A stretch of DNA of 64,000 bases from Anniella stebbinsi (Eukaryota; Chordata; Lepidosauria; Squamata; Anniellidae). Every line of letters begins with the position of its first letter. Within the stretch, counting starts at the first letter, position 1. Of this stretch, positions 3,099-64,000 are shown in pieces. The translations under genes were made by a program, and so were the position numbers. The DNA is taken from contig JARDYH010000002.1 of the NCBI GenBank assembly GCA_029215795.1, positions 294,655,973 through 294,719,972 of the forward strand, read 5' to 3'. The notes below the pieces were generated by a model. That model was not told the origin of the DNA. It was given only the letters and a program-made list of their open reading frames with translations, and did not search any database.

Positions 3099-5388
3099 TA
3101 GGGGTGTGCACGGACCCCCCGGATCGGATCGGGACCCGGATCGGGACCTCCAATTTTGTCCCGGACCGGTTCGGACAAAATCGGAGGCCCCCCGGACCGG
3201 ATCGAGTCCGATCCCGACCCAAAAATCGTACATTTTTGGATCGGCCGCCATTTTTTTCCCCATAGACTTGCATTGCAATGCAAGTCTATGAGGAAAAAAT
3301 GGCGGCGGGTGGGTAAGGGGGGGCCTAACTCCCTCCCCCCCCCGGGGCCGTCCGCTGTGGACGGCCCCGGCAGGTAAACCCCCTCCCCCGCGCTCCCTAC
3401 CCCCCCTGAGGCCGCCTGCTTCCATCCGCTGGCGCCCGCGGGCGCCAGCGGATAGAAGCGGACGGCTCCGGGGGGGGGTAAGCCCCCTTCCCCGCCACTT
3501 ACCTTCTCGGCACGTCCGGCGCCGGCGGCTACTACCAGCGGGCTCCGCGGCCTACTCTCGAGTAGCGCGCCGGGTGATGACATCACCCGGCGCGCCACCC
3601 TGGAGCAGGCCGCGGAGCCTGCTGGTAGTAGTAGGCGCCGGCGCCGGACGGGAGCCGCCGGGCCGGGCAGGTAAGGGCCCCCCTCCCCCCTCCCCCCTCC
3701 GCGCGCCCCCTCCTCCCCTCCACGCACCCCCTCCTTACCTTTCCGGCCCGGCGGCTCCCGTCCGGCGCCGGCGCCTACTACTTCCAGCAGGCTCCGCGGC
3801 CTGCTCTAGAGTAGCGCGCCGGGTGATGACATCACCCGGCGCGCCATCCTAGAGCAGGCCGCGGAGCCTGCTGGGAGTAGTAGGCGCCGGCGCCGGACGG
3901 GAGCCGCCGGGCCGGAAAGGTAAGGGCCCCCCTCCCCCCTCCGCGCGCCCCCTCCTCCCCTCCACACACCCCCTCCTTACCTTTCCGGCCCGGCGGCTCC
4001 CGTCCGGCGCCGGCGCCTACTACTTCCAGCAGGCTCCGCGGCCTGCTCTAGAGTAGCGCGCCGGGTGATGACATCACCCGGCGCGCCATCCTAGAGCAGG
4101 CCGCGGAGCCTGCTGGGAATAGTAGGCGCCGGCGCCGGACGGGAGCCGCCGGGCCGGAAAGGTAAGGGCCCCCCTCCCCCCTCCGCGCGCCCCCTCCTCC
4201 CCTCCACGCACCCCCTCCTTACCTTTCTGGCCCGGCGGCTCCCGTCCGGCGCCGGCGCCTACTACTTCCAGCAGGCTCCGCGGCCTGCTCTAGAGTAGCG
4301 CGCCGGGTGATGACATCACCCGGCGCGCCATCCTAGAGCAGGCCGCGGAGCCTGCTGGGAGTAGTAGGCGCCGGCGCCGGACGGGAGCCGCCGGGCCGGA
4401 AAGGTAAGGGCCCCCCTCCCCCCTCCGCGCGCCCCCTCCTCCCCTCCACGCACCCCCTCCTTACCTTTCCGGCCCGGCGGCTCCCGTCCGGCGCCGGCGC
4501 CTACTACTTCCAGCAGGCTCCGCGGCCTGCTCTAGAGTAGCGCGCTGGGTGATGACATCACCCGGCGCGCCATCCTAGAGCAGGCCGCGGAGCCTGCTGG
4601 GAATAGTAGGCGCCGGCGCCGGACGGGAGCCGCCGGGCCGGAAAGGTAAGGGCCCCCCTCCCCCCTCCGCGCGCCCCCTCCTCCCCTCCACGCACCCCCT
4701 CCTTACCTTTCCGGCCCGGCGGCTCCCGTCCGGCGCCGGCGCCTACTACTTCCAGCAGGCTCCGCGGCCTGCTCTAGAGTAGCGCGCCGGGTGATGACAT
4801 CACCCGGCGCGCCATCCTAGAGCAGGCCGCGGAGCCTGCTGGGAATAGTAGGCGCCGGCGCCGGACGGGAGCCGCCGGGCCGGAAAGGTAAGGGCCCCCC
4901 TCCCCCCTCCGCGCGCCCCCTCCTCCCCTCCACGCACCCCCTCCTTACCTTCCCGGCCCGGTGGCTCCCGTCCGGCGCCGGCGCCTACTACTACCAGCAG
5001 GCTCCGCGGCCTGCTCTAGAGTAGCGCGCCGGGTGATGACATCACCCGGCGCGCCACCCTAGAGCAGGCCGCGGAGCCTGCTAGTAGTAGTAGGCGCCGG
5101 CGCCGGACGGGAGCCACCGGGCCGAGAAGGTAAGTGCCCCCCTCCTCCCCCCCCCGCTGTCCACTTTCATCGGCGGGCGCCCGCTGGCGCCCGCCAATGG
5201 AAGCGGCGGTGGGCGCCAGTGGGCGCCCGCCGATCCGCCGATCCGCCGAACCGGTTCGGAGCTTTTTCGGACCGGTTCGGATTGGATCGGCCGATCCAGC
5301 TGCGGGATCGGAAATCGGATAATTTATCCGATTTCCCACTGGACCGGACTCGGATCGTGGATCGGGTCCGATCCAGTGCACATCCCTA
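3099..5388. mobile_element. GC-rich hAT element, family B, with internal palindromic array
   Basis: The termini TAGGGGTGTGCACGGA and, at the right end, GTGCACATCCCTA are flanked by the exact 8-bp duplication CAACAGAG at 3091-3098 and 5389-5396. Subterminal regions are rich in GGATCGGATC-type repeats in opposite orientations. Most of the 2.29 kb is a 242-bp tandem repeat array (separate entry). Long open frames on both strands reflect the GC richness and lack of stops. They show no domain and are not called as genes. A shorter relative is at 41882-42677. Confidence 0.9.
3430..5130. repeat. 242-bp GC-rich palindromic tandem array inside hAT-B
   Basis: The phrase GGTAAGGGCCC recurs near 3671, 3920, 4162, 4404, 4646 and 4888, and a variant near 5130, so the period is 242 bp (249 for the first full unit). 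Each unit is an inverted repeat centred on GGGTGATGACATCACCC, with arms running through GCGCGCC, a CCGCGGAGCCTGCTG segment, GGCGCCGGCGCC and a CCGGGCCGG segment. Seven palindrome centres are present. Units differ by only a few bases, so the amplification is recent or homogenised. Confidence 0.92.
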
Positions 5389-6442: not shown

Positions 6443-7938
6443 AATTATTATTATTATTATTATTATTATTATTTATGTATTTTATTTCTAACTTGCCTCT
6501 CCATCCAGATCGAGGTGGGGAACAACAATAAATATAAATACAAGAATCATAAAATAGATAAACATTAAAACAAATAAAAACAAATACATTATTAAAAACA
6601 TCTTAAAATTCAACTGGGTAGGTCTGCCGGAAGAGAACAGTCTTTATGGCTCTCTTAAATTCCAGAAGTCTGCTAATTTGTCGAATCTCCTCTGGCAGGC
6701 CATTCCACAGTCTGGGAGTGGCAGAAGAGAAGGTCCTCTGGGTAACACTCGTCAGCCTAGTTCTGTCTGATTGGAATAAATTCTTCCCAGAGGACCTGAG
6801 TGTGTGGGGCGGATTACATGGGAGGAGGCGATCCTGCAGGTAACCTGGACCCAACCATGTAGGGCTTTAAAGGTAATAACCAACACTTTATACTTCGCCC
6901 GGAAACTAATTGGCAGCCAGTAGAGTGATTTTAAGATTGGTGATATGCGGTCACCCCTAGGTGTACCGGTGACCAACCTGGCTGCCGTATTTTGAACTAG
7001 TTGAAGTTTCCGGACTAGGCACAAAGGTAGCCCTATGTACAGCGCATTGCAGAAGTCGAGCCTTGAAGTTACCAGCTTGTGCACTACCGTCTTTAGGTCT
7101 TCCAACTCTAGGAAGGGGTGCAGCTGGTGTATCAGTCGAAGCTGATAGCAGGCACTCCTGGCCGTCGCATCTATCTGAGCTGTCACTTAGAGCGACGGAT
7201 CCAGGAGTACTGCGAACACAGTCTTTCGGGGGGGGGGGGAGTGTAACCCCATCCAGAACTGGTTGACACACCTCCAAACCCAGGTTGTGGCCTTTGACAG
7301 CAAGCACCTCCGTCTTGTCTGGATTCAACTTCAGTTCGTTTTTCCTCATCCAGCCCATTACCACCTCCAAGCATTCATTCAGAGGAGACACACTATCCTT
7401 AGCTGACGATGTTGTCGAAGGCATAGAGAAATATATTTGGGTGTCATCAGTGTACTGACAGCACCCCGCCCCATGCCTCCGGATGATCTCTCCCAGCGGT
7501 TTCATGTAGATGTTAAACAGCATTGGGGAAAGGATGGCACCTTGTGGTACACCACATAGCAGCTCCTTCTTTGAAGAGCAGCTATACCCAAGCATCACCA
7601 TCTGGAACCTGCCTGAGAGATAGGAACGGAACCACAGAAGCACAGTGCCTCCAATTCCCAATCCCCCCAGGCGATCCAGAAGGATACCATGGTCGAAGGT
7701 ATCGAAAGCTGCTGAAAGGTCCAGGAGTACCAATAGGGACACACTCCCCCTGTCAATACTCAGGCGTAGATCATCCACTAAGGTGACCATAGCGGTCTCA
7801 ACTCCGTATCCTGCCCTGAAGCCGGTTTGAAATGGGTCTAGAAAATCTGTATCATCCAAAACTGCTTAGAGTTGAAAGGCAACCACCCTCTTGATCACTT
7901 TGCCCAAAAATGGAAGATTTGATACCAGCCTATAGTTA
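6443..7938 (-). mobile_element. L2-clade LINE, 5'-truncated, with partial RT frame
   Basis: On the minus strand the element runs from the RT domain to a 3' tail that ends in an ATT microsatellite at 6447-6472. The 7859-6957 frame (300 codons) shows RT palm motifs: LLVLLDLSAAFDTFDH (motif A), GVPQGAILSPMLFNIY (motif B) with PLGEIIRRHG, and YTDD (motif C). The C-terminal part continues in other frames (TSRLDFCNALYIGLPL, then TFSSATPRLWNGLPEEIR). The product would be a retrotransposon reverse transcriptase acting on its own RNA, but frameshifts and the missing endonuclease make this copy dead. The PLG-IIRRHG and APRLWN signatures favour L2 over CR1. Confidence 0.9.
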
Positions 7939-9788
7939 TTAAGCAAGTTACAAATTTGTAACGATTTACAGAATTTTTATTTGTGGATTGTGTAACGTTC
8001 TTCATCTAGCTTGCAGTTTTGCCTACAAATTTACTTATGTAAATTAATTTTGGATTTATTTTAAACCCGCATGTCCACAGAATTCACTTGATATGAAGAT
8101 GCTGGCCCAGCGTGAAATCTGCGGACAGGCTTACAAGATATCTGGATTCATTTTGGATTGCTTTACCATCCTGAGACTTAATTGCCTGTTCCAGACCAAC
8201 CCAATCTAAAATACTTTGTATTACACAAGGGAATATATTCTTGGTGGGGAAATTAATTTCCCCCCAGCCACTGTGAGGATTGCAGTTGAGCTCAGAGGGA
8301 AAAGGGAATTCTGAGGGCGGGGTGCAGGTGACATCAGCTTCCCTGCCAATCAAAAAGTGCTGGTAATGAGTCTCTGTAAACATGGGCTCCATTACACCAC
8401 CTTCCCTGATGGCAAAGGGTGTGGTGCTCTCCCAAGGACCAAGGCTGAGACCTTTAGTACCTGAAAGCGAAAATGCATTGACTTCCAGGAACCTTCAGTA
8501 GAAATTGGGTCACTGTATCACCCACACAAGTTAAATATATTTACTGGGAGGGTCAAATATCAGTCAATAATGAAATAAACCCTTCTCACATAGTTCAACT
8601 GGGCCTAGATTTCAATATATTAAAATGAAAGAAATAACACATGCCATCATCCTCCAGTGAGTTAAAATTATGCATCACTTTTTGGCTTAGCAGGCTCTCT
8701 AACAGAAGAACAGGATTAAAGAGGTCAGTAAAACAAACAGGTGGCAGAGTAGGAATGGGAACGGAAACACAAGTAGTGAGATATTTTGGTACTTTTCACA
8801 GCCAATAGCCTAGTATATTTCATAGCTAGTAAGTAGCCATAATGATTGTAATCACAGCTCACCACCTGCTTACCATTTATTTTTGAAAAAACATGTTTTA
8901 TTACATATTAATCTGCAATTAAATCGTAGTATGCTTCTAATCACTGTTAATTCTACTGTTGCTTATAGTTAGAGGCTATATCATGGGGCTTTTTTGTTGT
9001 ACTTCGTATACACAAGATCATATTTGTGTTAATTCATTCAGAAAAAAACCCCATATCACATCCTAGTTCTGCATTCACAGTTACTAACATCTATGATGAC
9101 TTGATGGCTGCAGTATCAAGTGATATGTTTTCTATGTGCATGAGCCTTCAGAGGACACAGACCTGATTTGCATGGGTTGCGTGCTGTGTGTGCTGCAGTC
9201 CCTTTAAATATGCAAACTCTGATCAGTCTTATCATAGGTTGCTCCATGATATGCAAACCCAGGCACTATGGGTTATTCGTGGATTAAACAACCCAAAGTC
9301 AACCTAAAAATTATTTTTTTTAAAAAAAACTCAAAGTGCCCAGGTTTGCCCAGCATGGAGAAACCTTATAAAAAATGAACAATAATAAGAACATTTCCAA
9401 TGTATTAGGTAGGCTATACTGGAGACCTGCAATCCAATGTGGAGAGATGGCTTGAATTTCCTTGTGTTGCAAATAGAGCTTTTGTGCTCTGTTTTCCTCC
9501 TGGACCTTAGTCATACCTCTGTATATTCCCATCAGTTATCTTTATACTCGTATATTTCATGGCAATTCTTCCTATCCAGTCTCCATCTGTATTCTAACCC
9601 TGAGTTTGGTCTGGATCCTACTTTCATGGGTTTACTCTATCCTCTAGTCTAGAGGTGGGCAATGCATGGCTCATGGGCCACATGAAGCCCCTAGGCCTTT
9701 TGTGCAGCCTCCATGGACTACCAACTGCTGCCACATTTGCCATGGTGGGGAAAAGGAGCACCTTTGCTTTAAAACAAGGCATATTGGG
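7939..9788. other. Unassigned sequence
   Basis: This is AT-rich sequence with no supported gene. A phrase AGAGGTGGGCAA near 9652 recurs near 24866 and, inverted, near 32735. It probably marks the end of another dispersed transposon family whose limits I could not set. Confidence 0.4.
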
Positions 9789-10651
9789 TAGGGTGACCAC
9801 ATGAAAAGGAGGACAGGGCTCTTGTATCTTTAACAGTTGTAAAGAAAAGGGAATTTCAGCAGGTGTTATTTGTATGCATGTAGCACCTAGTGAAATTCCC
9901 TCTTCATCACAGTTAAAGCTGCAGGAACTCTGCCCTCTTTTGTAACTAGGGGGCGTCTATATGAGGGGAAAGCCACAGAGTGGCTCCACAGTGGTGCGGT
10001 GTTGTTTATATAATGCAGAAGCCATTGCGGAGCCATCCCAGGGCTTTCCCCTAAAGATCCAAAACAAAGAAGTCGAAGACTTGCCCTGACTTTTTCCAAT
10101 GCAGTGAGACAACGATGGTGCATCAATATCTGTTGTTGCTCCAGAGTCACGGTGGGAGGCATAGTCGAGCAGATGACAACCTCTGATTGGTTGTCATCTG
10201 CCTGGACAGGGGGGAGGGGGCTAGAATGCCTCCACGCTTCTATGGTGTGGGAAGATGAAAGGAAAAGATTTTTAAAAGCTACAAAATGATTTAAAAAACA
10301 CATGGAGGGGTGTGCGGATGCACAGTTTCACCTGTGTGGTGATGCACAGTTGTGCAGTGGTGCATGGGCATGGCGAGGGTTCCTCTAGTGCAAACCCCGT
10401 GCTTACTCCTTAGCGCGGGGACAACCCACATGAGCACAAACGTGGAGATTTGGGGGCTTGCAGCGCCAATGCGTCATCGTGAAGACAGCCTCATGGTCAC
10501 TCTAGAGAGTTCCTGCAGCTTTAACTGATGTGATGAAGAGGGAATTTCACCAGGTGCTGCATGCATACAAATGACACCTGCTGAAATTCCCTTTTCTATA
10601 CAACTCTTAAAGATACAGGAGGCCTGTCCTCCTTTCCATATGGTCACCCTA
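9789..10651. mobile_element. hAT family A copy interrupted by a nested insertion
   Basis: The left half (TAGGGTGACC onward) runs to about 9949. The inverted right half runs from about 10490 and ends TGGTCACCCTA at 10651. In intact copies these halves are contiguous, so about 540 bp (9950-10489) is inserted at the palindrome centre. No matching 8-bp flanks are visible, so the outer ends may have been rearranged. Confidence 0.75.
9950..10489. mobile_element. Putative MITE nested in hAT-A
   Basis: The insert begins GGGGGCGTCTATATGA and ends TCGTGAAGACAGCCTC. Inverted, these share about 11 of 16 positions, which resembles the GGCCCTGTCTACACC-type termini at 28797. The exact borders and target duplication are uncertain. 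Confidence 0.45.
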
Positions 10652-10750
10652 AGTGCACAAATTGTTTGGAAGCAGAATTCTGCTCACTGAAACTGCCTGG
10701 TAGCACAATTTTGAATCCAAATAAGCTGCGCACTGCCTGCATGCCTTGTG

Positions 10751-11011
10751 TAGAGTGACCATATGAAAAAGAGGACAGGGCTCCTGTATATTTAATTGCT
10801 GTATAGAAAAGGGAATTTCAGCAGGTGTCATTTGTATGCATGCAGCACCTGGTGAAATTCCCTCTTCATCACAACAGTTAAGCTTGGGAACTATACTAGA
10901 GTGACCAGACACAGGTGCTGCTTGCATATTAATGACACCTGCTGAAATTCACTTCTATATACAACTGTTAAAGATACGGAGCCCAGACCTCCTTTTCATA
11001 TTGTCACTCTA
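10751..11011. mobile_element. hAT family A, shortened copy
   Basis: The copy begins TAGAGTGACC and ends with TTGTCACTCTA. The flanking octamers GCCTTGTG and GCCTTGGG match at 7 of 8. At 261 bp it is shorter than the usual 320 bp, having lost part of the centre. Confidence 0.8.
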
Positions 11012-12154
11012 GCCTTGGGTTTAAGGCAATACTGTTACTTCTGTGCTGCCACCACAGCACCAAATTACAGTGGCAAATTTGGTGGTGGGGTGTGGCCCCT
11101 GATGGGGTTTGGGAGGGCTACGCAGACCCCCAACACCTAGAAGTTGCCAAACTCTGTTGTAGTTAATACTGAAGTCCACCACCTGGTCAGTCACCTTGGT
11201 CTCATACCTGACCAGGGCTGCATTTCTGTGCACATTTCGGCTGTTGAAGTCAATGGGGTTTGGACAGCCTCATGTACAGGACTGAACTTGCAGTCACCAC
11301 GGACTTCTCCATTCTGTCACAGCATTTTAGACAGTTTCCCAAGTTTATATCTGACATTGCATTTGTCTAATGCCAATCAATGCCATCTGCTTTGTGACTT
11401 GCCTTGGCTTGCTTTGATCTTGCATCAAATCCGGACGATCACCTCTTAGCAAATCTGCCTCAGATGAGATTGTGATGCAGCCTGACTCAGTTTTCTACAC
11501 TTTGAAAACGAGAGACATAACACATGCTTTTGTTTACGTTGGGAAGCAAAAACTACGTTCTCTCTGAAGAATGGGAGGGCATAAAAACAGACCCATAAAA
11601 TGCTACAGTGGTTATTATTATTCAAGACAAAGCAAAACACAAGACAGGGATGTGCGGGTGAACTTCTTCTGTTCATTGTTCATAAAATCAGTTTCCTTAG
11701 GAAGGACTTCATCAGCAAAATCCCAAGCATCGCTCCCATGCTGGGAACGGCCCAGCCGAGGAATGCAAGTTCATTAGGTTTACTTAAAGCAGCCCTGTGT
11801 TGCAATGACAAGAGAAAGGCAAAGTCTGGGAAACTTGGCAGGAAGTTGAGTCTCACTGTATTATTTTTCACATGACTTGGTGATGGTGATACTAATTGAA
11901 AATCCTGCAGTCCCCCCTTCTTTCTTTCCCTACATTGCCCAATGAGGTTGCTTTGCTGTATGTCATTTGACAGGCACAAGATTATACCGAAACCCCTACA
12001 AATGACCTTTTGAATCTTTGGGAACTTGGCAGCTAGAATGCAGCTATTCATAGGCAAGGTACATCAGTATCCCAACTGAATGCTTTGGGTAAAGGTTTAG
12101 GGAAGGTGTGTTGTTGAGCATTGGGATGAAGTCATTTGATACCCGAGTCATCAT
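11012..12154. other. Unassigned sequence
   Basis: I see no supported gene or element. Short frames occur on both strands without recognisable domains. Confidence 0.5.
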
Positions 12155-13097: not shown

Positions 13098-13442
13098 GGT
13101 CCCCTCTACAAGGATTCGCTTTTGCGCCTGGTTAGCCGATTATGCGCATCATCGCTGAAGCGCATTTACGCCTAATCACTCTGCACGAGAGGCGGCGAAG
13201 CGCATTAATGGATTTCCAAAGTGCGGTTTACAAATAGTTAATACACATAAGCGCATATTCACACAGTCAAAATGCGCTTTAACGGCCGGAGCAAAATAAA
13301 ACTCGCGATTTAACGCGCATTTGATAATGCGCATAATTGGAGAGATAACGCGCCTCTACGCCCCATTTGCGCTCCGCTGGTGTGGAGGTAATTTTTTTAA
13401 AGCGCCTTGAAAGAGCTTTAAACCTCTCTTGTAGAGGCAGCC
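13098..13442. mobile_element. Harbinger-like MITE (GCGCATT family), copy 1
   Basis: The ends GGTCCCCTCTACAAG and, inverted, GGCTGCCTCTACAAG are flanked by the 3-bp duplication CAT at 13095-13097 and 13443-13445. The interior is full of GCGCATT/AATGCGC words. The same family occurs at 18009, 29349 and 30878, and as the terminus at 58568. It is non-coding and must be moved in trans. Confidence 0.82.
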
Positions 13443-15909: not shown

Positions 15910-16229
15910 TAGGGTGACCATATGGAAAGGAGGAGAGGTTTCCTGTATCTTTAACAGTTGTACAGAAAAGGGGATTTCAACAGGTGTCACTTACATGCAT
16001 GCAGCACCTGGTGAAATTCTCTCTTCATCACAACAGTTAAAGCTGCAGGAGCTTTGCTCTCTTTTGTATCTGATCACCCTAGTATAGCTCCTGCAGCTTT
16101 TACTGTTGTGATGAAGAGAGAATTTCACCACATGCTGCGTGCACACAAATGACACCTGCTGAAATTCCCTTTCCTATGCAACTGTTAAAGTTACAGGAAC
16201 TCTATCCTCCTTTTCATATGGTCACCCTA
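15910..16229. mobile_element. hAT family A copy
   Basis: TAGGGTGACC to GGTCACCCTA, 320 bp, with two inverted halves of the GCATGCAGCACCTGGTG subfamily. The flanking octamers CCTATCTC and TCTACCTC agree at 6 of 8, consistent with an old duplication. Confidence 0.82.
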
Positions 16230-16327
16230 TCTACCTCAAAACATGATGTCAACAAGAGAAAAAGATAGGTACTCCCTTTAGGATGTGGCTATTCAGTGCC
16301 AACAAAGTGCTATGAAGTATGCTGTAC

Positions 16328-16647
16328 TAGGCTGACCATATGAAAAGGAGGACAGGGCTCCTGTAACTTTAATAGTTGTAGAGAAAAATGAATTTCAGCC
16401 AGTGTCATTTGTATGCAATTAGTTCCTGGTGAAATTCCCTCTTCATCACAACAGTTAAAGGTGCAGTCATTATACTAGAGTGTCCATATACAAAAGAAGG
16501 CAGGGCCCCTGCAACTTTAACTGTTGTGATGAAGAGGGAATTTCAACAGGAACTAATTGCATACAAATGACACTGGCTGAAATTCCCTTTTCTCTTCAAC
16601 TGTTAAAGATACATGAGCCCTGTCCTCCTTTTCATATGGTCAGCCTA
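16328..16647. mobile_element. hAT family A copy with intact target duplication
   Basis: TAGGCTGACC to GGTCAGCCTA, 320 bp, flanked by an exact TGCTGTAC at 16320-16327 and 16648-16655. It is the same subfamily (CAATTAGTTCCTGGTG) as 458-777 and 27549-27867. Confidence 0.92.
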
Positions 16648-18008: not shown

Positions 18009-18353
18009 GGTCCCCTCTACAAGGATTTGCTTTTGCGCCTGGTTAGGCGATTATGCGCATAATCGCAGAAGCGCATTTATGCCTAATACCTCTGCACGAG
18101 AGGCGGCGAAGCGCATTAACGGATGACCAAAATGCGCTTTACAAGTAGTTAATGCGCATAAGCGCTTGTTCACATAGTCAAAATGCGCTTTAACGGCCGG
18201 GGCAAAATAAAACTCGCTGTTTAATGCGCATTTGATAATGTGCATAATTGGAGGAATAGCGCGCCTCTACGCCCGATTTGCGCTCCGTTCTTGTAGAGGT
18301 AAATTTTTTAATGCGCCTTGAAAGAGCTTTAAATGCCTCTTGTAGAGGCAGCC
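18009..18353. mobile_element. Harbinger-like MITE (GCGCATT family), copy 2
   Basis: Ends GGTCCCCTCTACAAG and GGCTGCCTCTACAAG (inverted), target duplication TCA at 18006-18008 and 18354-18356, length 345 bp. It is nearly collinear with 13098-13442. Confidence 0.85.
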
Positions 18354-27548: not shown

Positions 27549-27867
27549 TAGGCTGACCATCTGAAAAGGAGGACAGGGCTCATACAACTTTAACAGTTGT
27601 AGAGAAAAGGGAATTTCAGCCAGTGTCATTTGTATGCAATTAGTTCCTGGTGAAATTCCCTCTTCATCACAACTGTTAAAGGTGCAGGCACTATACTAGA
27701 GTGATCATATACAAAAGAAGGCAGGGCTCTGCAACTTTAACTGTTGTGATGAAGAGGGAATATCACCAAGAACTAACTGCATACAAATGACACTGGTTGA
27801 AATTCCCTTTTCTCTACAACTGTTAAAGTTATATGAGCCCTGTCCTCCTTTTCAGATGGTCAGCCTA
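27549..27867. mobile_element. hAT family A copy with intact target duplication
   Basis: TAGGCTGACC to GGTCAGCCTA, 319 bp, with exact GGGTAGCT at 27541-27548 and 27868-27875. It is a palindromic two-half structure as in the other copies. Confidence 0.92.
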
Positions 27868-27965
27868 GGGTAGCTGCTCTTTGCTAGTGGCATGCCATGA
27901 TCAAATTGCTATGAGAGGGGTAAGGAGGGGGCTTGTGGGTGGAGGATCTTTCTTTCCAGCAGGGT

Positions 27966-29348: not shown

Positions 29349-30454
29349 GGCCTCCTCCACACGAGACGTTTAATGAGCCTTGAAGGCTCATTATAAATTT
29401 TACCTCCACACCAGCGGAGCACAAAACGGGCGTACAGGCGCGTTATCTCCCCGATAATGCGCATTTTCGAATGCGCGTTAAATAGCGACTTTTATTTTGC
29501 TCCGGCAGTTAAAGCGCATTTTGACTGCTGCCGCCGCTGTCAAAAGCCCTCCCCCAGCTGCAACGGCGCAGATTGGGGGATCAGCCAGTCGTGGCGGACG
29601 TGCAGCCAGCGAGCGAGCTCTCGAGGAGGTCGCTCCTCGCTCTGTCTTTCGGCTCGCGGGGTGAGGAAGGCTCAACTTTTCTCTGCCGCTCCTCCTCCTC
29701 CTCCTCCTCGCCCCCGGCAGCAGCAGCCTCTGCAGGGCCGGGAGGGGGGGCGAGCGAGCAATTCACAAACAGGGATGCGGAGCGTGCTGGCGGCGCCCCC
29801 CACAGCCCACCCCACGCAGAAAAAGAGAGAGAGAGATCAGGTTGGCGAGGAAGAGAGCGGGAGGAATAGGGAATTGCGAGGATGGGGCGGCGGGGGAGAG
29901 AGAAATCCTCGCAAGAATAACACTAATACTTCTAATAATAATGTGATCGAGGCCCCTCCTTCGCTCCGCCTCCTCCTCCCCCCCCCCCCCAGCGTTGCAG
30001 CAGCCAAAGCAAGGAGCCAGATGGCAAAGCTTGGCAGGTCTGTCTGTTGCTGCTGCAGTCATTCAAAGCCGAGTGTGTGTGTGTGTGTGTGTGTGTGTGC
30101 TTTCCCTGCTCCTCCCTCCCTCCGTCCGTCCTCCCTCCCGCCGCTTTGCCCCCAAGGTTCCTGCCTTCCCATTCCCCAAACCCAGTGCTGCCAAGCCCGA
30201 TCACAAGCTCTCCCCCACCGACGGTTCAAAAATATCAAACGCAAAACGCGGGGGGCGCTTCAAGAACAGCTCATCAGGAGGGTGGCGGGGGAAGAGAGAG
30301 CGAGAGAGCGAGAGAAACGGACTTGACAGCCTGCCAGAGGGAAGGGGAGGGGAGCGCCGCCTCTCGTGCAGAGGTATTAGGCGTAAAGGCGCTTCAGGGA
30401 TAGTGCGCCCAATCGCCTAACCGGGCGCAAAAGCGAATTCTTGTGGAGGGGGCC
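29349..30454. mobile_element. Harbinger-like element (GCGCATT family) carrying GC-rich filler
   Basis: Left end GGCCTCCTCCACACGAGACG, right end CTTGTGGAGGGGGCC, exact TTA duplications at 29346-29348 and 30455-30457. The outer 180 bp (left) and 100 bp (right) match the inverted sequence of the 355-bp copy at 30878-31232. The middle, about 29527-30353, has no counterpart there. It is GC-rich with many CpGs and contains a GT microsatellite at 30072-30099. Frames of up to 289 codons cross the element ends and show no domain. Confidence 0.82.
29527..30353. other. CpG-rich filler inside the Harbinger-like element
   Basis: It resembles a vertebrate CpG island or first-exon region: poly-purine and poly-pyrimidine tracts, GCGGCG words, CTCCTC runs and an AGAGAG tract. 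It could be captured host sequence. The source cannot be identified from the window. Confidence 0.5.
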
Positions 30455-30877: not shown

Positions 30878-31232
30878 GGCCCCCTCCACAAGGATGCGCT
30901 TTTGCGCCCGGTTCGGGGATTATGCGCATTTTCGCGGAGGCGCATTTACGCCTAATCCCTCTGCACGGGAGGCGGCGAGAAGCGGCGAAGCGCATTAAAA
31001 GATGCCCAAAAAGCACTTTACAGGTAGTTAATGCGCATAATCGCTTGTTCACACAGCGAAAATGCGCTTTAACGGCCGGAGCAAAATAAAAGTCGCTATT
31101 TAACGCGCGTTCGAAAATGCGCATTATCGGGGAGATAACGCGCCTGTACGCCCGTTTTGCGCTCCGCTCGTGTGTAGGTAAAATTTATAATGAGCCTTCA
31201 AGGCTCATTAAACGTCTCGTGTGGAGGAGGCC
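30878..31232. mobile_element. Harbinger-like MITE (GCGCATT family), copy 4, intact
   Basis: GGCCCCCTCCACAAGG to GTGTGGAGGAGGCC, 355 bp, with exact TAA at 30875-30877 and 31233-31235. Its right 180 bp, inverted, is highly similar to 29349-29530 and to 58568-58750. Confidence 0.88.
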
Positions 31233-57899: not shown

Positions 57900-58564
57900 T
57901 TCAATAGTTAATGTGATCTCATGGAATGTCAAAGAGCTACGAAATGTAAATAAGCAGAAAAGAGTACTTTTTTCTAAGTTAAAAGAGCTCAATGCTGATG
58001 TTGCATTTCTGCAAGAAACTCATTTGATGTCTGTTGATGAACATATGTTGAGAAAGGACAGGGTTGGTGAGGTTTATGTGTAACACAGCATAAAGGGGTG
58101 GCGATTTTGATCCATAAATGACTCTCCATTGTAACTCAACAGGTGGTTCTTGATATTGAGAGGCACTTTTTGATTTTGGTTGGGAAGTATATGGACAAAC
58201 TAATTGCTACGATTAATGTATATGGACCTAATATCGATTCCTCAGATATGTTTCATGATTGGTTTAGCAATCTGGTCAATATTGCTTATGATTATTTGAT
58301 TGTGGGTGGGGTCTTTAACAAGGTTTTAGATCCTTCACTTGATAGAAATACACCTCCTCCTAAGATTTAAACAGCTGTGAGATTGGCAGTTCAGGCTTAC
58401 ATGATGGAATATGATTTAATTGATGCCTGGAGAATATTACATCCTGTTGATAGAGAGTATACTTTTATTTCATCAGTTTATCATAATTGCTTTAGATTAG
58501 ATTAGTTTTTGGTTTCTACATCCCTGATAGATCAAATAAAAGATTGTAAAATTGACATATTAGC
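57900..58564 (+). mobile_element. L1-type LINE endonuclease region, decayed
   Basis: Broken frames give the N-terminal apurinic endonuclease pattern of L1/Tx1-type ORF2. The pieces are VISWNVKELRN (about 57910), LKELNADVAFLQETHL with the QETH catalytic signature (about 57980-58028), INVYGPN (about 58215-58235) and YDYLIVGGVFN, where a G-DFN is expected (58290-58322), then YFLVS-like decay near 58500. Stops and frameshifts are present. It is cut at its right by the Harbinger-like terminus at 58568, consistent with that element having inserted into it. Confidence 0.8.
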
Positions 58565-58943
58565 AGTGGCCTCCTCCACACGGGGCGTTTAATGAGCCTT
58601 GAAGGCTCATTATAAATTTTACCTACACACGAGCGGAGCGCAAAACGGGCGTAGAGGCGCGTTATCTCCCGGATTATGCGCATTATCGAATGCGCGTTAA
58701 ATAGCGACTTTTATTTTGCGGCGGGATGTAAAGCGCGTTATGACCATGTGTACAGTTTTTCAGTGAAGCGCATTTTCGGAGAGGTGTGAGCAGGTAGAGG
58801 GCGGGTTTTGACGAGATGGGCGGGGAGAGGGAAGGTATTTCCGGCGGGAGATTTGAAAAAAAAGCCCTCAGGTTATGCGCAGCCGCGCGGGTGTGCTCAC
58901 CCAACGGTTTGGCTGGAGGCGCAGGTGTGGTCGCGCGCCTATG

Positions 58944-59049: not shown

Positions 59050-59539
59050 ATGGCTGCTCCAGGAAGGGGAGTTTCTTGGAAAAAGGCAGAGATTCTCGAC
59101 CTTCTGGACATTTTTGGGGAGCAGAAAGTTCAAGCTCAACTGAATGCCAGCCATAGGAACCTCGATGCCTATGAATCCATTGCTCAGGAAATGCAAAGAA
59201 GGGGCCATATCCGTACAGCGAAGGAGTGCAGGACGAAGGCAAAGGCAATGAGGCAGGAATATCGCAGGGTCGTGAATCATAATTCACGATCAGGAAATGA
59301 TGCTGCCACCTGCCCCTTTTTTGAGGAGCTTCATAGCATTTTTCGGGGGGATGCTACTATTCAACCAAATCGCGTGGGCAGGAGTCTGAACATCCATCGT
59401 GTCCAAGCACCTGCTGCTGCTCCCCCAGTAAGTTCCCCCCTGGCTTTCCCGCTCTCAGAAGGCTCAGAAGAACTGTTCAGCAGTGAACTTCAAACAATAG
59501 ATGTGGAGGACTACCTTGGAACGCCCTACTCTCCCGGAG
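59050..59539 (+). CDS. Myb/SANT-like DNA-binding domain protein, exon 1
   Basis: This exon encodes 163 codons plus one base. Residues about 8-98 form a Myb/SANT-like (MADF/Myb_DNA-bind_4 type) three-helix domain: W10 and the E-I-L-D-L-L helix (14-19), N37-x-x-x-Y41-x-x-I44-A45 (helix 2), then RTAKECRTKAKAMRQEYRRV (55-74), the recognition-helix block with conserved C60 and K63/K65, and a CPFFEEL block (88-94). The R-SG-D--TCPFFEEL-I pattern is that of the large MSANTD/ZSCAN29-like families in reptiles and of Harbinger Myb-like proteins. A Pro/Ala/Ser-rich, then acidic tail (residues 115-163) follows. The ATG has G at -3 and G at +4. The frame stays open past the donor GGAG|GTACAT, but splicing at 59539 joins in frame to exon 2. 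The expected role is sequence-specific DNA binding in the nucleus. Confidence 0.8.
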
Positions 59540-59630
59540 GTACATTGATTGTAATTGCCATTTTTTAAAAAATCTCGTTCTTCCTTCTATTTCATGCCTA
59601 TAGCTCACATCTGATGTTTTCCCCTTTTAG

Positions 59631-59672
59631 AATTGGAGACACCAGAAGATATTGGAAACGAAGAACCTGAAG
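59631..59672 (+). CDS. Myb/SANT gene, exon 2 (42 bp)
   Basis: A polypyrimidine stretch and TTTTAG acceptor precede it, and AAG|GTATAG follows. Phase 1 on both sides. It adds 14 residues, ELETPEDIGNEEPE, an acidic linker. The intron before it is only 91 bp. The acceptor and in-frame joining are good; no RNA evidence is available. Confidence 0.65.
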
Positions 59673-59981
59673 GTATAGACTGTTTCTTTTGTTGGGTTGG
59701 GAAGACTCTTAACTTTACAACTTAATATTGTGTTCCATGGAATAAAAAATTGTATTCTAAAATGGGGCAGGCAGATGCGGGTGAGCGGGTGGGGCAGGAG
59801 AGGGCAGGAGAGATCTCCTGTAGCTACCCAGCGTTTCTCTGGTCTCTCCAGGGCGGGGGGGAAAAAGGATAAGGGGCAGGCAGCCATTTTGAACAACCAC
59901 CCCCATTTCAAAAGGAGGGAGGTTTGTGATTGTGCCTATTGATGAAACCTCCTAAAAGCTCTTCTTTTTCTGCCACGGCAG

Positions 59982-60083
59982 GAGCCTACAGAAGCAGCAG
60001 TACCACCAGTGCATCGGAATCCATTGAGCAAGCAGATTTGAGGGCCAGAAATCTCCAGCAGCATCCTGCAGCAGCAGCACCGA
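59982..60083 (+). CDS. Myb/SANT gene, array exon 1 of 8 (102 bp)
   Basis: Acceptor CTGCCACGGCAG|GAG, donor A|GTAAGTA, phase 1 in and out, 34 codons. The product is AYRSSSTTSASESI..., then ADLRARNLQQHP and an Ala/Pro end. It is the most diverged unit (ESIEQADL instead of ETSEHADL). The acceptor is a CAG|GAG tandem, so use of the second AG would drop one residue without a frame change. Confidence 0.7.
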
Positions 60084-60604
60084 GTAAGTACAGGCCTAGC
60101 TAATTTCTGAGGTCAGACATCATGGAAGGAAGGGAGTTCCCAATGATCTAGGCTGGGTTTATGGGGGGGGGGGAGGGGGAAAGGGGGGCATTGGACACAA
60201 CATTGTGGTGCATGGGACCAGAAATTGTGGTCTATGGGAGGGATTCCCGCCTTTTTCTCTACAGCAGTTAAAGTTACATGAGCCCTGACCTCCTTTTCAT
60301 GTGGTCAGCCTAGGCAGGCAGCCATTTTGAACACACAAACAACCCCCCCCCCTATTTAAAATGGAGGTTTGTGATTGTGCCTATTGGAAGACTCTTAACT
60401 TTACAACTTAATATTGTGTTCCATGGAATAAAAAATTGTATTCTAAAATGGGGCAGGCAGATGCGGGTGAGCGGGTGGGGCAGGAGAGGGCAGGAGAGAT
60501 CTCCTCTAGCTACCCAGCGTTTCTCTGGTCTCTCCAGGGCGGGGGGGGAAAAAGGATAAGGGGCAGGCAGCCTCCTAATAGCTCTTCTTTTTCTTCCACG
60601 GCAG

Positions 60605-60700
60605 CCTACAGAAGCAGCAGTACCACCAGTGTGTCAGAAACCAGTGAGCACGCAGATTTGAGGGCCAGAAATCTCCAGCAGCATCCTGCAGCAGCACCGA
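60605..60700 (+). CDS. Myb/SANT gene, array exon 2 of 8 (96 bp)
   Basis: Acceptor TTCCACGGCAG|CCT, donor CCGA|GTAAGTA, phase 1 in and out, 32 codons (YRSSSTTSVSETSEHADLRA and on). It is followed by an intron of only 60 bp that is itself open in frame, so it may be retained as a single longer exon with array exon 3. Confidence 0.7.
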
Positions 60701-60760
60701 GTAAGTATAGGGCTATGTCAATGAAACCTCCTAAAAGCTCATCTTTTTCTGCCATGGCAG

Positions 60761-60862
60761 GAGCCTCCAGAAGCAGCGGTACCACCAGTGCGTCAGAAAC
60801 CAGTGAGCATGCAGATTTGAGGGCCAGAAATCTCCAGCAGCATCCTGCACCAGCACCACCGA
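60761..60862 (+). CDS. Myb/SANT gene, array exon 3 of 8 (102 bp)
   Basis: Acceptor TGCCATGGCAG|GAG (tandem CAG|GAG as in array exon 1), donor CCGA|GTAAGTA, phase 1 in and out, 34 codons, unit ending in PAPAPP. Confidence 0.7.
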
Positions 60863-60929
60863 GTAAGTATAGGGCTAATTTCTGGGGTGCATGGGACCAG
60901 AAATTGTGGTCTATGGGAGGGATTTCAGC

Positions 60930-61312
60930 CTTTTTCTCTACAGCACTTAAAGTTACATGAGCCCTGACCTCCTTTTCATGTGGTCACTGTAGTATACTGC
61001 CTGCAACTTTAACTGTGGTGATGAAGAGGGAATTTCACCAGGTGCTGCATGCATACAAACGGCACCGGCTGAAATTCCTTTTTCTCTACAGCACTTAAAG
61101 TTACATGAGCCCTGACCTCCTTTTCATGTGGTCACTGTAGTATACTGCCTGCAACTTTAACTGTGGTGATGAAGAGGGAATTTCACCAGGTGCTGCATGC
61201 ATACAAACGGCACCGGCTGAAATTCCTTTTTCTCTACAGCACTTAAAGTTACATGAGCCCTGACCTCCTTTTCATGTGGTCAGCCCTGACCTCCTTTTCA
61301 TGTGGTCAGCCT
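60930..61312. repeat. Tandemly repeated hAT-A half elements inside an intron
   Basis: A unit running from CACTGTAGTATACTGCCTGC through GATGAAGAGGGAATTTCACC to CCTTTTCATGTGGT occurs twice in tandem (starts near 60986 and 61131, period about 145) and is followed by a 26-bp duplicated end. The same arrangement recurs at 62500-62830. Related single halves lie near 60246-60310, 61650-61830 and 63165-63347. Confidence 0.82.
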
Positions 61313-61430
61313 AGGCAGGCAGCCATTTTGAACACACAAACAACCCCCCCCCCCTATTTAAAATGGAGGTTTGTGATTGTGCCTATTGGAATGAAACCTC
61401 CTAATAGCTCTTCTTTTTCTTCCACGGCAG

Positions 61431-61529
61431 CCTACAGAAGCAGCGGTTCCACCAGTGCGTCGGAAACCAGTGACCACGCAGATTTGAGGGCCAGAAATCT
61501 CCAGCAGCATCCTGCACCAGCACCACCGT
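61431..61529 (+). CDS. Myb/SANT gene, array exon 4 of 8 (99 bp)
   Basis: Acceptor TTCCACGGCAG|CCT, donor CCGT|GTAAGTA, phase 1 in and out, 33 codons. It has SETSDHADL instead of SETSEHADL. The terminal base T instead of A changes the junction codon from Thr/Arg type to Ser/Cys type without breaking the frame. Confidence 0.7.
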
Positions 61530-62122
61530 GTAAGTACTGGGCTAATTTCTGGGGTGCATGGGACCAGAAATTGTGGTCTATGGGAGGGATTTCAGCCTTT
61601 TTCTCTACAGCACTTAAAGTTACATGAGCCCTGACCTCCTTTTCATGTGGTCACTGTAGTATACTGCCTGCAACTTTAACTGTGGTGATGAAGAGGGAAT
61701 TTCACCAGGTGCTGCATGCATACAAACGGCACCGGCTGAAATTCCCTTTTCTGTACAACTGTTAAAGTTACATGAGCCCTGACCTCCTTTTCATGTGGTC
61801 AGCCCTGACCTCCTTTTCATGTGGTCAGCCTAGGCAGGCAGCCATTTTGAACACACAAACAACCCCCCCCCTATTTAAAATGGAGGTTTGTGATTGTGCC
61901 TATTGGAAGACTCTTAACTTTACAACTTAATATTGTGTTCCATGGAATAAAAAATTGTATTCTAAAATGGGGCAGGCAGATGCGGGTGAGCGGGTGGGGC
62001 AGGAGAGGGCAGGAGAGATCTCCTCTAGCTACCCAGCGTTTCTCTGGTCTCTCCAGGGCGGGGGGGAAAAAGGATAAGGGGCAGGCAGCCTCCTAATAGC
62101 TCTTCTTTTTCTTCCACGGCAG

Positions 62123-62218
62123 CCTACAGAAGCAGCAGTACCACCAGTGTGTCAGAAACCAGTGAGCACGCAGATTTGAGGGCCAGAAATCTCCAGCAGC
62201 ATCCTGCAGCAGCACCGA
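62123..62218 (+). CDS. Myb/SANT gene, array exon 5 of 8 (96 bp)
   Basis: This is a duplicate of array exon 2, 1518 bp downstream and identical as far as I can read, with the same acceptor, donor and phase. It lies in the second 1.52-kb repeat. Confidence 0.7.
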
Positions 62219-62278
62219 GTAAGTATAGGGCTATGTCAATGAAACCTCCTAAAAGCTCATCTTTTTCTGCCATGGCAG

Positions 62279-62380
62279 GAGCCTCCAGAAGCAGCGGTAC
62301 CACCAGTGCGTCAGAAACCAGTGAGCATGCAGATTTGAGGGCCAGAAATCTCCAGCAGCATCCTGCACCAGCACCACCGA
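62279..62380 (+). CDS. Myb/SANT gene, array exon 6 of 8 (102 bp)
   Basis: This is a duplicate of array exon 3 at offset 1518 bp, apparently identical, again after a 60-bp open intron. Confidence 0.7.
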
Positions 62381-62947
62381 GTAAGTATAGGGCTAATTTC
62401 TGGGGTGCATGGGACCAGAAATTGTGGTCTATGGGAGGGATTTCAGCCTTTTTCTCTACAGCACTTAAAGTTACATGAGCCCTGACCTCCTTTTCATGTG
62501 GTCACTGTAGTATACTGCCTGCAACTTTAACTGTGGTGATGAAGAGGGAATTTCACCAGGTGCTGCATGCATACAAACGGCACCGGCTGAAATTCCTTTT
62601 TCTCTACAGCACTTAAAGTTACATGAGCCCTGACCTCCTTTTCATGTGGTCACTGTAGTATACTGCCTGCAACTTTAACTGTGGTGATGAAGAGGGAATT
62701 TCACCAGGTGCTGCATGCATACAAACGGCACCGGCTGAAATTCCTTTTTCTCTACAGCACTTAAAGTTACATGAGCCCTGACCTCCTTTTCATGTGGTCA
62801 GCCCTGACCTCCTTTTCATGTGGTCAGCCTAGGCAGGCAGCCATTTTGAACACACAAACAACCCCCCCCCCTATTTAAAATGGAGGTTTGTGATTGTGCC
62901 TATTGGAATGAAACCTCCTAATAGCTCTTCTTTTTCTTCCACGGCAG

Positions 62948-63046
62948 CCTACAGAAGCAGCGGTTCCACCAGTGCGTCGGAAACCAGTGACCACGCAGAT
63001 TTGAGGGCCAGAAATCTCCAGCAGCATCCTGCACCAGCACCACCGT
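62948..63046 (+). CDS. Myb/SANT gene, array exon 7 of 8 (99 bp)
   Basis: This is a duplicate of array exon 4 at offset 1517 bp, with the same T before the donor. Confidence 0.7.
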
Positions 63047-63705
63047 GTAAGTACTGGGCTAATTTCTGGGGTGCATGGGACCAGAAATTGTGGTCTATGG
63101 GAGGGATTTCAGCCTTTTTCTCTACAGCACTTAAAGTTACATGAGCCCTGACCTCCTTTTCATGTGGTCACTGTAGTATACTGCCTGCAACTTTAACTGT
63201 GGTGATGAAGAGGGAATTTCACCAGGTGCTGCATGCATACAAACGGCACCAGCTGAAATTCCCTTTTCTGTACAACTGTTAAAGTTACATGAGCCCTGAC
63301 CTCCTTTTCATGTGGTCAGCCCTGACCTCCTTTTCATGTGGTCAGCCTAGGCAGGCAGCCATTTTGAACACACAAACAACCCCCCCCCCCTATTTAAAAT
63401 GGAGGTTTGTGATTGTGCCTATTGGAAGACTCTTAACTTTACAACTTAATATTGTGTTCCATGGAATAAAAAATTGTATTCTAAAATGGGGCAGGCAGAT
63501 GCGGGTGAGCGGGTGGGGCAGGAGAGGGCAGGAGAGATCTCCTCTAGCTACCCAGCGTTTCTCTGGTCTCTCCAGGGCGGGGGGGAAAAAGGATAAGGGG
63601 CAGGCAGCCATTTTGAACAACCACCCCCATTTCAAAAGGAGGGAGGTTTGTGATTGTGCCTATTGATGAAACCTCCTAATAGCTCTTCTTTTTCTTCCAC
63701 GGCAG

Positions 63706-63798
63706 CCTACAGAAGCAGCGGTTACACCAGTGCGTCGGAAACCAGTGACCACGCAGATTTGAGGGCCAGAAATCTCCACTATCCTGCAGCAGGAGCGA
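63706..63798 (+). CDS. Myb/SANT gene, array exon 8 of 8 (93 bp)
   Basis: Acceptor TTCCACGGCAG|CCT, donor GCGA|GTAAGTA, phase 1 in and out, 31 codons. It differs from the others by SSGYTSASE and by a shortened end (NLHYPAAGA instead of NLQQHPA), so it is a distinct terminal unit. Confidence 0.7.
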
Positions 63799-63968
63799 GT
63801 AAGTACAGCCGATGTTATTTGCTTGATAAAGTTTCAGTCCTGCAATTCTTATAAATGTGTGAAAGGACATTCTCATCTTCAGGATGAGGGTGCGAGAGAA
63901 CCCATGGTACAGGCTGGACATGTAATAAATGATTTTTAAACACACTAAACTTTGCCCTTTCCCTTCAG

Positions 63969-64000
63969 GTACAGATGAAGGAAGGAGACATCCCATCCAA
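63969..64000 (+). CDS. Myb/SANT gene, following exon, cut by the window edge
   Basis: Acceptor TTTCCCTTCAG|GTACAGATG. Joined to the phase-1 end of array exon 8 it reads STDEGRRHPIQ, open to base 64000. It is not a member of the array. The gene continues beyond the window. Confidence 0.5.

Follow-up and report, generated by a model that had tools for sequence, protein, structure and literature searches.

A tandem array of symmetric exons, differing in number between copies, in the Myb gene of a recently multiplied PIF/Harbinger-class transposon of Anniella stebbinsi

Towards the right end of a 64,000-nucleotide stretch of the Anniella stebbinsi genome (GenBank assembly GCA_029215795.1, contig JARDYH010000002.1, positions 294,655,973 to 294,719,972, forward strand; hereafter the window) lies a gene that opens with a Myb/SANT DNA-binding domain and continues in eight short tandem exons, and which belongs not to the host but to a transposon of the PIF/Harbinger class (PHIS). 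It occupies 59050-64000 of the plus strand and continues past the window end; positions above 64,000 are extended window coordinates, with the downstream DNA appended from the genome assembly. The eight-exon array is confirmed, with the units (E1 to E8, 93-102 nt; Table 1) at the places given by the first-pass annotation. Every unit has AG and GT sites and is phase 1 at both ends; the predicted donor reads GTAAGTA in all eight, and the predicted acceptor CACGGCAG in six and CATGGCAG in two. The DNA-binding domain that had been described ahead of the repeat is of the Myb type (PF13837, 4.4e-19), and an AlphaFold model of exon 1, helical and of middling confidence (mean predicted local distance difference test score 63.7), may lend support through its best Foldseek match, a GT-1 trihelix (E 0.094, probability 1.00). 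The repeat itself is rich in Ser, Ala, Thr and Pro, again as described. At the end of unit 8 the joined open reading frame (ORF) has run for 440 codons; the 451 codons originally given are reached by counting in the stretch of exon 9 that falls within the window, and the full protein, joined through exon 9 beyond the window, has 666 amino acids. Searches with Rfam and ARAGORN gave no match, nor did a protein search with a joined ORF holding five of the eight units, and no relatives were found in the viral contig and genome contig collections.

Only five of the unit sequences are distinct (E2 equals E5, E3 equals E6 and E4 equals E7), because about 1.8 kb of sequence occurs in two copies offset by some 1520 bp; these are 99.67% identical and differ by one substitution and five single-base homopolymer indels. 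The first-pass annotation had held that any number of units could be skipped. The phase is indeed kept, but 32 of the 256 ordered subsets are closed and 224 open: leaving out unit 5 by itself creates a stop, because E4 ends in T and E6 begins with GA, forming TGA, and the subsets that hold units 4 and 6 without 5 are exactly the 32 closed ones. The two 60-nt introns are in frame and free of stops, and could therefore be retained without closing the frame; the E2-E3 intron is identical in 23 of 23 instances across the copies considered below. An open frame across the units is weak evidence by itself, because these are recent and very similar duplicates, and the simulated probability of meeting no stop is 0.74-0.89 per unit.

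Table 1. Features of the Myb gene, of the transposon that carries it and of related elements, in window coordinates
Feature	Position	Strand	Remarks
Exon 1	59050..59539	+	ATG and Myb/SANT DNA-binding domain (PF13837); phase 1 end
Exon 2	59631..59672	+	42 nt, phase 1-1
Unit exon E1	59982..60083	+	102 nt
Unit exon E2	60605..60700	+	96 nt
Intron, E2 to E3	60701..60760	+	60 nt, in frame
Unit exon E3	60761..60862	+	102 nt
Unit exon E4	61431..61529	+	99 nt, last base T
Unit exon E5	62123..62218	+	96 nt, same sequence as E2
Intron, E5 to E6	62219..62278	+	60 nt, in frame
Unit exon E6	62279..62380	+	102 nt, same sequence as E3
Unit exon E7	62948..63046	+	99 nt, same sequence as E4
Unit exon E8	63706..63798	+	93 nt, final unit
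Exon 9, start	63969..64000	+	C-terminal region with SPATRL motif; continues past window end
Recent tandem duplication, copy 1	60281..62090	+	overlaps copy 2
Recent tandem duplication, copy 2	61801..63609	+	
Old L1-like long interspersed nuclear element (LINE)	57900..58567	+	ORF2 endonuclease, matches human L1 endonuclease residues 11-221; with a frameshift and stops of its own; the transposon interrupts it
Target site duplication AGT, left copy	58565..58567		3 bp; right copy at extended 70489-70491
Left terminal region of transposon	58568..58744	+	starts GGCCTCCTCCACACG; dense GCGCRTT motifs
Related element	29349..30454	+	same termini, target site duplication TTA, unrelated GC-rich interior
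Related short element (miniature inverted-repeat transposable element, MITE)	30878..31232	-	target site duplication TTA
Older related MITE	13098..13442	-	target site duplication ATG
Older related MITE	18009..18353	-	target site duplication TGA

The transposon spans 58568 to extended position 70488, a length of 11,921 bp, between 3-bp target site duplications (TSDs). It has landed in an L1 that continues on its far side: once the element and one AGT are removed, the L1 frame runs through the motif SDHAPV, even if this frame carries older stops of its own besides the insertion. The terminal inverted repeats, GGCCTCCTCCACACG on the left and the reverse complement GGCCCCCTCCACAAG on the right, are imperfect and about 15 bp long. 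The transposon mPing likewise begins with GGCC. A longer inverted repeat of 177-183 bp was rejected, this being the length of the left terminal region common to separate elements, and TSDs of the 2-bp TA or 8-bp hAT type were dropped in favour of the exact 3-bp duplications found. On the minus strand lies a DDE_Tnp_4 transposase domain (L009:4408-5157; PF13359, 2.6e-35, passing the cutoff), as well as a second and different Myb/SANT exon (L009:2522-2881, extended 66449-66808; 8.1e-10). Together with the window's Myb gene, these therefore make an element with at least three genes, and the lone gene of no described family that had been proposed from the sequence gives way to the Myb ORF of a high-copy transposon.

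The boundaries are well defined by relatives within the window. Four shorter elements each carry, at one end, the 177 bp that start at 58568, and all four show an exact 3-bp duplication at the predicted boundary (0/4 when the right boundary is moved by 1, 2, 3 or 4 bp either way); across the six elements with both ends read, such a duplication is exact in five (AGT, TTA, TTA, ATG and TGA). The GC-rich interior of the element at 29349-30454 represents a possible Pack-type capture of host DNA. As a separate observation, 37 of the 40 occurrences of GCGCRTT in the window fall inside the five elements (58568-58774, 29349-29525, 13098-13442, 18009-18353 and 30878-31232), with five in the 177-bp left end against 0.25 expected, and 7-10 in each of the three short elements against 0.4-0.6 expected. 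These clusters at the element ends are a candidate binding array for a Myb protein.

The element has multiplied recently in this genome. Exon 1 is 100% identical over 490 bp at all 40 scored places, the window copy included (274 candidates), a search with the transposase domain returned sequences 98-100% identical at 150 scored of 1916 candidate places, 149 of them without a stop, and with a gecko relative as query, 97 of 115 scored places (1655 candidates) share one score, that of the window copy; these genome-wide figures are lower bounds. The 21 copies read comprise the window and, from a list of 39 others with an exact copy of exon 1, the first 20, which were thus preselected for an identical exon 1. 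Among them the 450 nt before the ATG show a mean pairwise divergence of 0.5%, and the 309-nt intron ahead of the array one of 0.1%.

It is across these near-identical copies that the number of units differs. Two copies hold four units, 15 hold five, one holds six, one seven and two eight, and the commonest array is E1-E2-E3-E4-E8. The window copy, E1-E2-E3-E4-E2-E3-E4-E8, is this five-unit element with a recent tandem duplication of three exons, whilst the other eight-unit copy, L018, reads E1-E2-E3-E4-E1-E2-E3-E8. E4 is present twice in L012 and three times in L015, and is missing from L013. The four-unit copy L014 lacks both E8 and exon 9, its array being followed directly by positions 7916-11921 of the window element. 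Each of the 112 unit exons in the 21 copies has AG and GT sites, a length that is a multiple of three and no in-frame stop, and 111 carry the full CAYGGCAG and GTAAGTA. In 18 of the 21 copies the joined ORF stays open until it meets the exon-9 stop; besides L018, which we return to below, the exceptions are L014, with exon 9 lost, and L021, which is open so far as it runs before leaving the fetched piece. Copies with different unit numbers therefore hold many lengths of one protein linker in one genome. The array introns also differ in length between copies. In L021 the E1-E2 intron measures 5990 nt, against 342-521 nt in the other copies, and probably holds a further insertion.

Six further loci in the same genome extend the range, with 0, 1, 2, 3, 5 and 6 units. 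No unit was detected in about 4.5 kb after the Myb exon of L033, which is 54% identical to that of the window, and a single unit is present in L031 (84%). L032 (96%) has two units, the first closest to E1 and the second about equally close to E1 and E8; three are found in L034 and five in L036 (both 97.5%), and six in L035, a young copy with an identical Myb exon (100%). The units of L036 have a mean identity of 97% among themselves against 83% to those of the window, and cluster in a FastTree tree (about 100 sites, modest support). Their being closer to each other than to the window's units implies that expansion, or expansion with homogenisation, has taken place at least twice. L032 is itself one of six high-scoring Myb-exon places, with open frames of 288 amino acids, within about 360 kb (G000:C5:181.71-182.07 Mb), which may reflect an older relative duplicated locally.

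Other repeats were seen in the window. A palindromic repeat lies in the array introns (60929-61282, 61596-61804, 62447-62800 and 63113-63321) and recurs at about 460-775, 9791-9925, 10494-11012, 15912-16645 and 27551-27869, locally in tandem with a period of 148. A GC-rich tandem array with a 242-bp period (6.8 copies, 97% matches) occupies 3513-5157.

Taken together, the gene very probably is the Myb gene of a recently multiplied PIF/Harbinger-class transposon, with a tandem set of symmetric spacer exons whose number varies from copy to copy and whose part as a linker is suggested by the architecture. Judging from studied relatives, the Myb protein would bind the element ends, bring the transposase there and aid its entry into the nucleus. 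The units, of about 33 residues each and rich in Ser, Thr, Ala, Pro and Gln, would then form a flexible linker from the DNA-binding domain to the C-terminal region, in which most changes of length may be tolerable because every unit is phase 1 at both ends. At repeats common to exons and introns, unit number could shift through unequal exchange, or through slippage while the gap left by excision is repaired, as is generally known of repeated DNA.

Several observations weigh against this reading of the array. The splicing of the units is a prediction from sequence, and the 60-nt introns are shorter than the human threshold of 65 nt (PMC4463651). In L018 a stop follows E4, because its final T meets the initial GA of E1 (a stop avoidable if the second AG of the CAGGAG acceptor were used), and one of the five units of L036 reads AT where the GT donor should stand; together these mean that some arrays are damaging or decaying. 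Exon 9 was not found in 5.5 kb of the one-unit locus L031, which is therefore possibly incomplete. Between units, no constraint on the repeat was detected, pN being about equal to pS. As for the element, the flanks of L014 differ (CGA on the left, CAA on the right), and TWA, the TSD that narrowly defines the PIF/Harbinger group, is found at only 4 of 25 left flanks (TAA for L013 and L022, and TTA for each of two short elements), whereas the insertion in the window has AGT.

Could the gene instead belong to the host, as an MSANTD7-like gene with an exon array that sits beside a transposon or was captured by one? Several such genes exist in the leopard gecko, Eublepharis macularius, six of whose proteins are 46-51% identical over the Myb exon and carry an SPG[TS][RQ]L motif at the position of SPATRL in exon 9, and the element at 29349-30454, with the same ends around an unrelated interior, implies that capture may occur in this group. 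However, the gecko proteins could be transposon ORFs themselves, and exon 1 is identical at every scored place, within an element that has a Harbinger-type transposase and defined ends. The locus is neither low-copy nor outside a mobile element, and the host-gene reading is rejected on the high copy number and on the restoration of the L1 frame at the empty site; we hold it to be highly improbable. Hardly more credible is that the eight-unit state, as opposed to the array itself, is an artefact of assembly, with a 1.52-kb stretch duplicated between near-identical repeats. High-copy repeats are prone to misassembly, and just one substitution and a few homopolymer indels separate the two copies. 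Yet that substitution does separate them, L012, L013, L014, L015, L018 and L035 also deviate from five units, in differing ways, and other loci carry one, two and three units with sequences of their own.

A far more serious contender, to which we assign somewhat less than an even chance, and which is compatible with the transposon reading, is that the units are carried along neutrally: a repeat akin to a minisatellite, with an exon in it by chance and its number without function. The proportions of synonymous (pS, 0.05-0.15) and nonsynonymous (pN, 0.04-0.14) differences in the ten unit pairs are similar, and the changes are too few to reveal selection among the units; array introns vary in length as well, and the predominance of five units (15 of 21 copies) is what one recent master copy would yield. 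Against neutrality stand the 112 intact unit exons, of low weight in copies so young, which have diverged too little for conservation of exons and introns to be compared, and a 26-nt core that the five distinct window units share without change (permutation p = 0.0007), although it is altered in L031 and in the second unit of L032 and is explicable by gene conversion. Repeated expansion or homogenisation of the array also argues against mere passengers. The adjustable linker first proposed for the gene fits the architecture, but no selection on the units was detected, and the variation in number is one seen between DNA copies of the element, not in splicing; the first-pass interpretation as a whole is partly supported. 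We can go further and posit, as a rather unlikely scenario, that transposition, by way of gap repair after excision, drives repeated expansion and contraction of the array, with unit number tuning how the Myb protein bridges the element ends and the transposase. If so, lineages of the element would compete by linker length, and this one genome would offer a natural gradation between 0 and 8 units.

Returning to the transposon reading, the element shares with PIF/Harbinger systems such as Harbinger3_DR, Ping/mPing and the sea krait Harbinger-Snek a DDE_Tnp_4-type transposase, a Myb/SANT ORF, terminal inverted repeats, a 3-bp TSD and short non-autonomous relatives. According to two studies, ORF1 of Harbinger3_DR binds the terminal inverted repeats and is required for nuclear localisation of the transposase, which the Myb-like protein of studied relatives also binds (PMC2836001, PMC9179366). 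Unlike these systems, the element has two Myb/SANT genes instead of one, the Myb spacer comes from a tandem exon array of varying number, the TSD is mostly not TWA, and the inverted repeat is short and imperfect. PIF/Harbinger candidates average about 4.1 kb in one survey, against 11.9 kb here, and most candidate autonomous elements there have two ORFs (PMC4482050); the same source gives C|TNA|G as the target of the NuwaII group of PHIS. The target preference seen here recalls NuwaII more than TWA, with a Myb/SANT second ORF in common and a C ahead of the TSD at 20 of 25 insertions, but no group is assigned, because left flanks read TNA in just 8 of 25 and TWA in fewer still. As to the six gecko proteins, of which two are annotated as myb/SANT-like DNA-binding domain-containing protein 7 and four are uncharacterized, the likeness extends to a GSEEL motif and an SPGTRL-type motif near the C-terminal region. 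A crude 12-residue scan showed no clear internal repeat in them (at best 7/12 identical), and kinship of the units with the gecko linkers was unsupported, each of 12 comparisons being matched by at least 26 of 300 shuffled units.

Tandem exon duplication is itself well described (PMC9013439), and agrees with our array in its adjoining homologous exons of equal phase, with kept splice sites, that arise from tandem duplication of DNA. The difference is that this array sits in a mobile element, whose many insertions in a genome sample different unit numbers. A literature search that reached few subscription papers found no Harbinger Myb gene with such an array of exons, and no element with two Myb genes. 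To conclude, the element described here adds to the PIF/Harbinger class a member with two Myb genes beside its transposase. Exon arrays are usually studied gene by gene, whereas here near-identical copies differ in exon number within one genome, so that one can measure directly how fast, in which direction and at which breakpoints exons duplicate, and how far a protein linker tolerates changes in its length.

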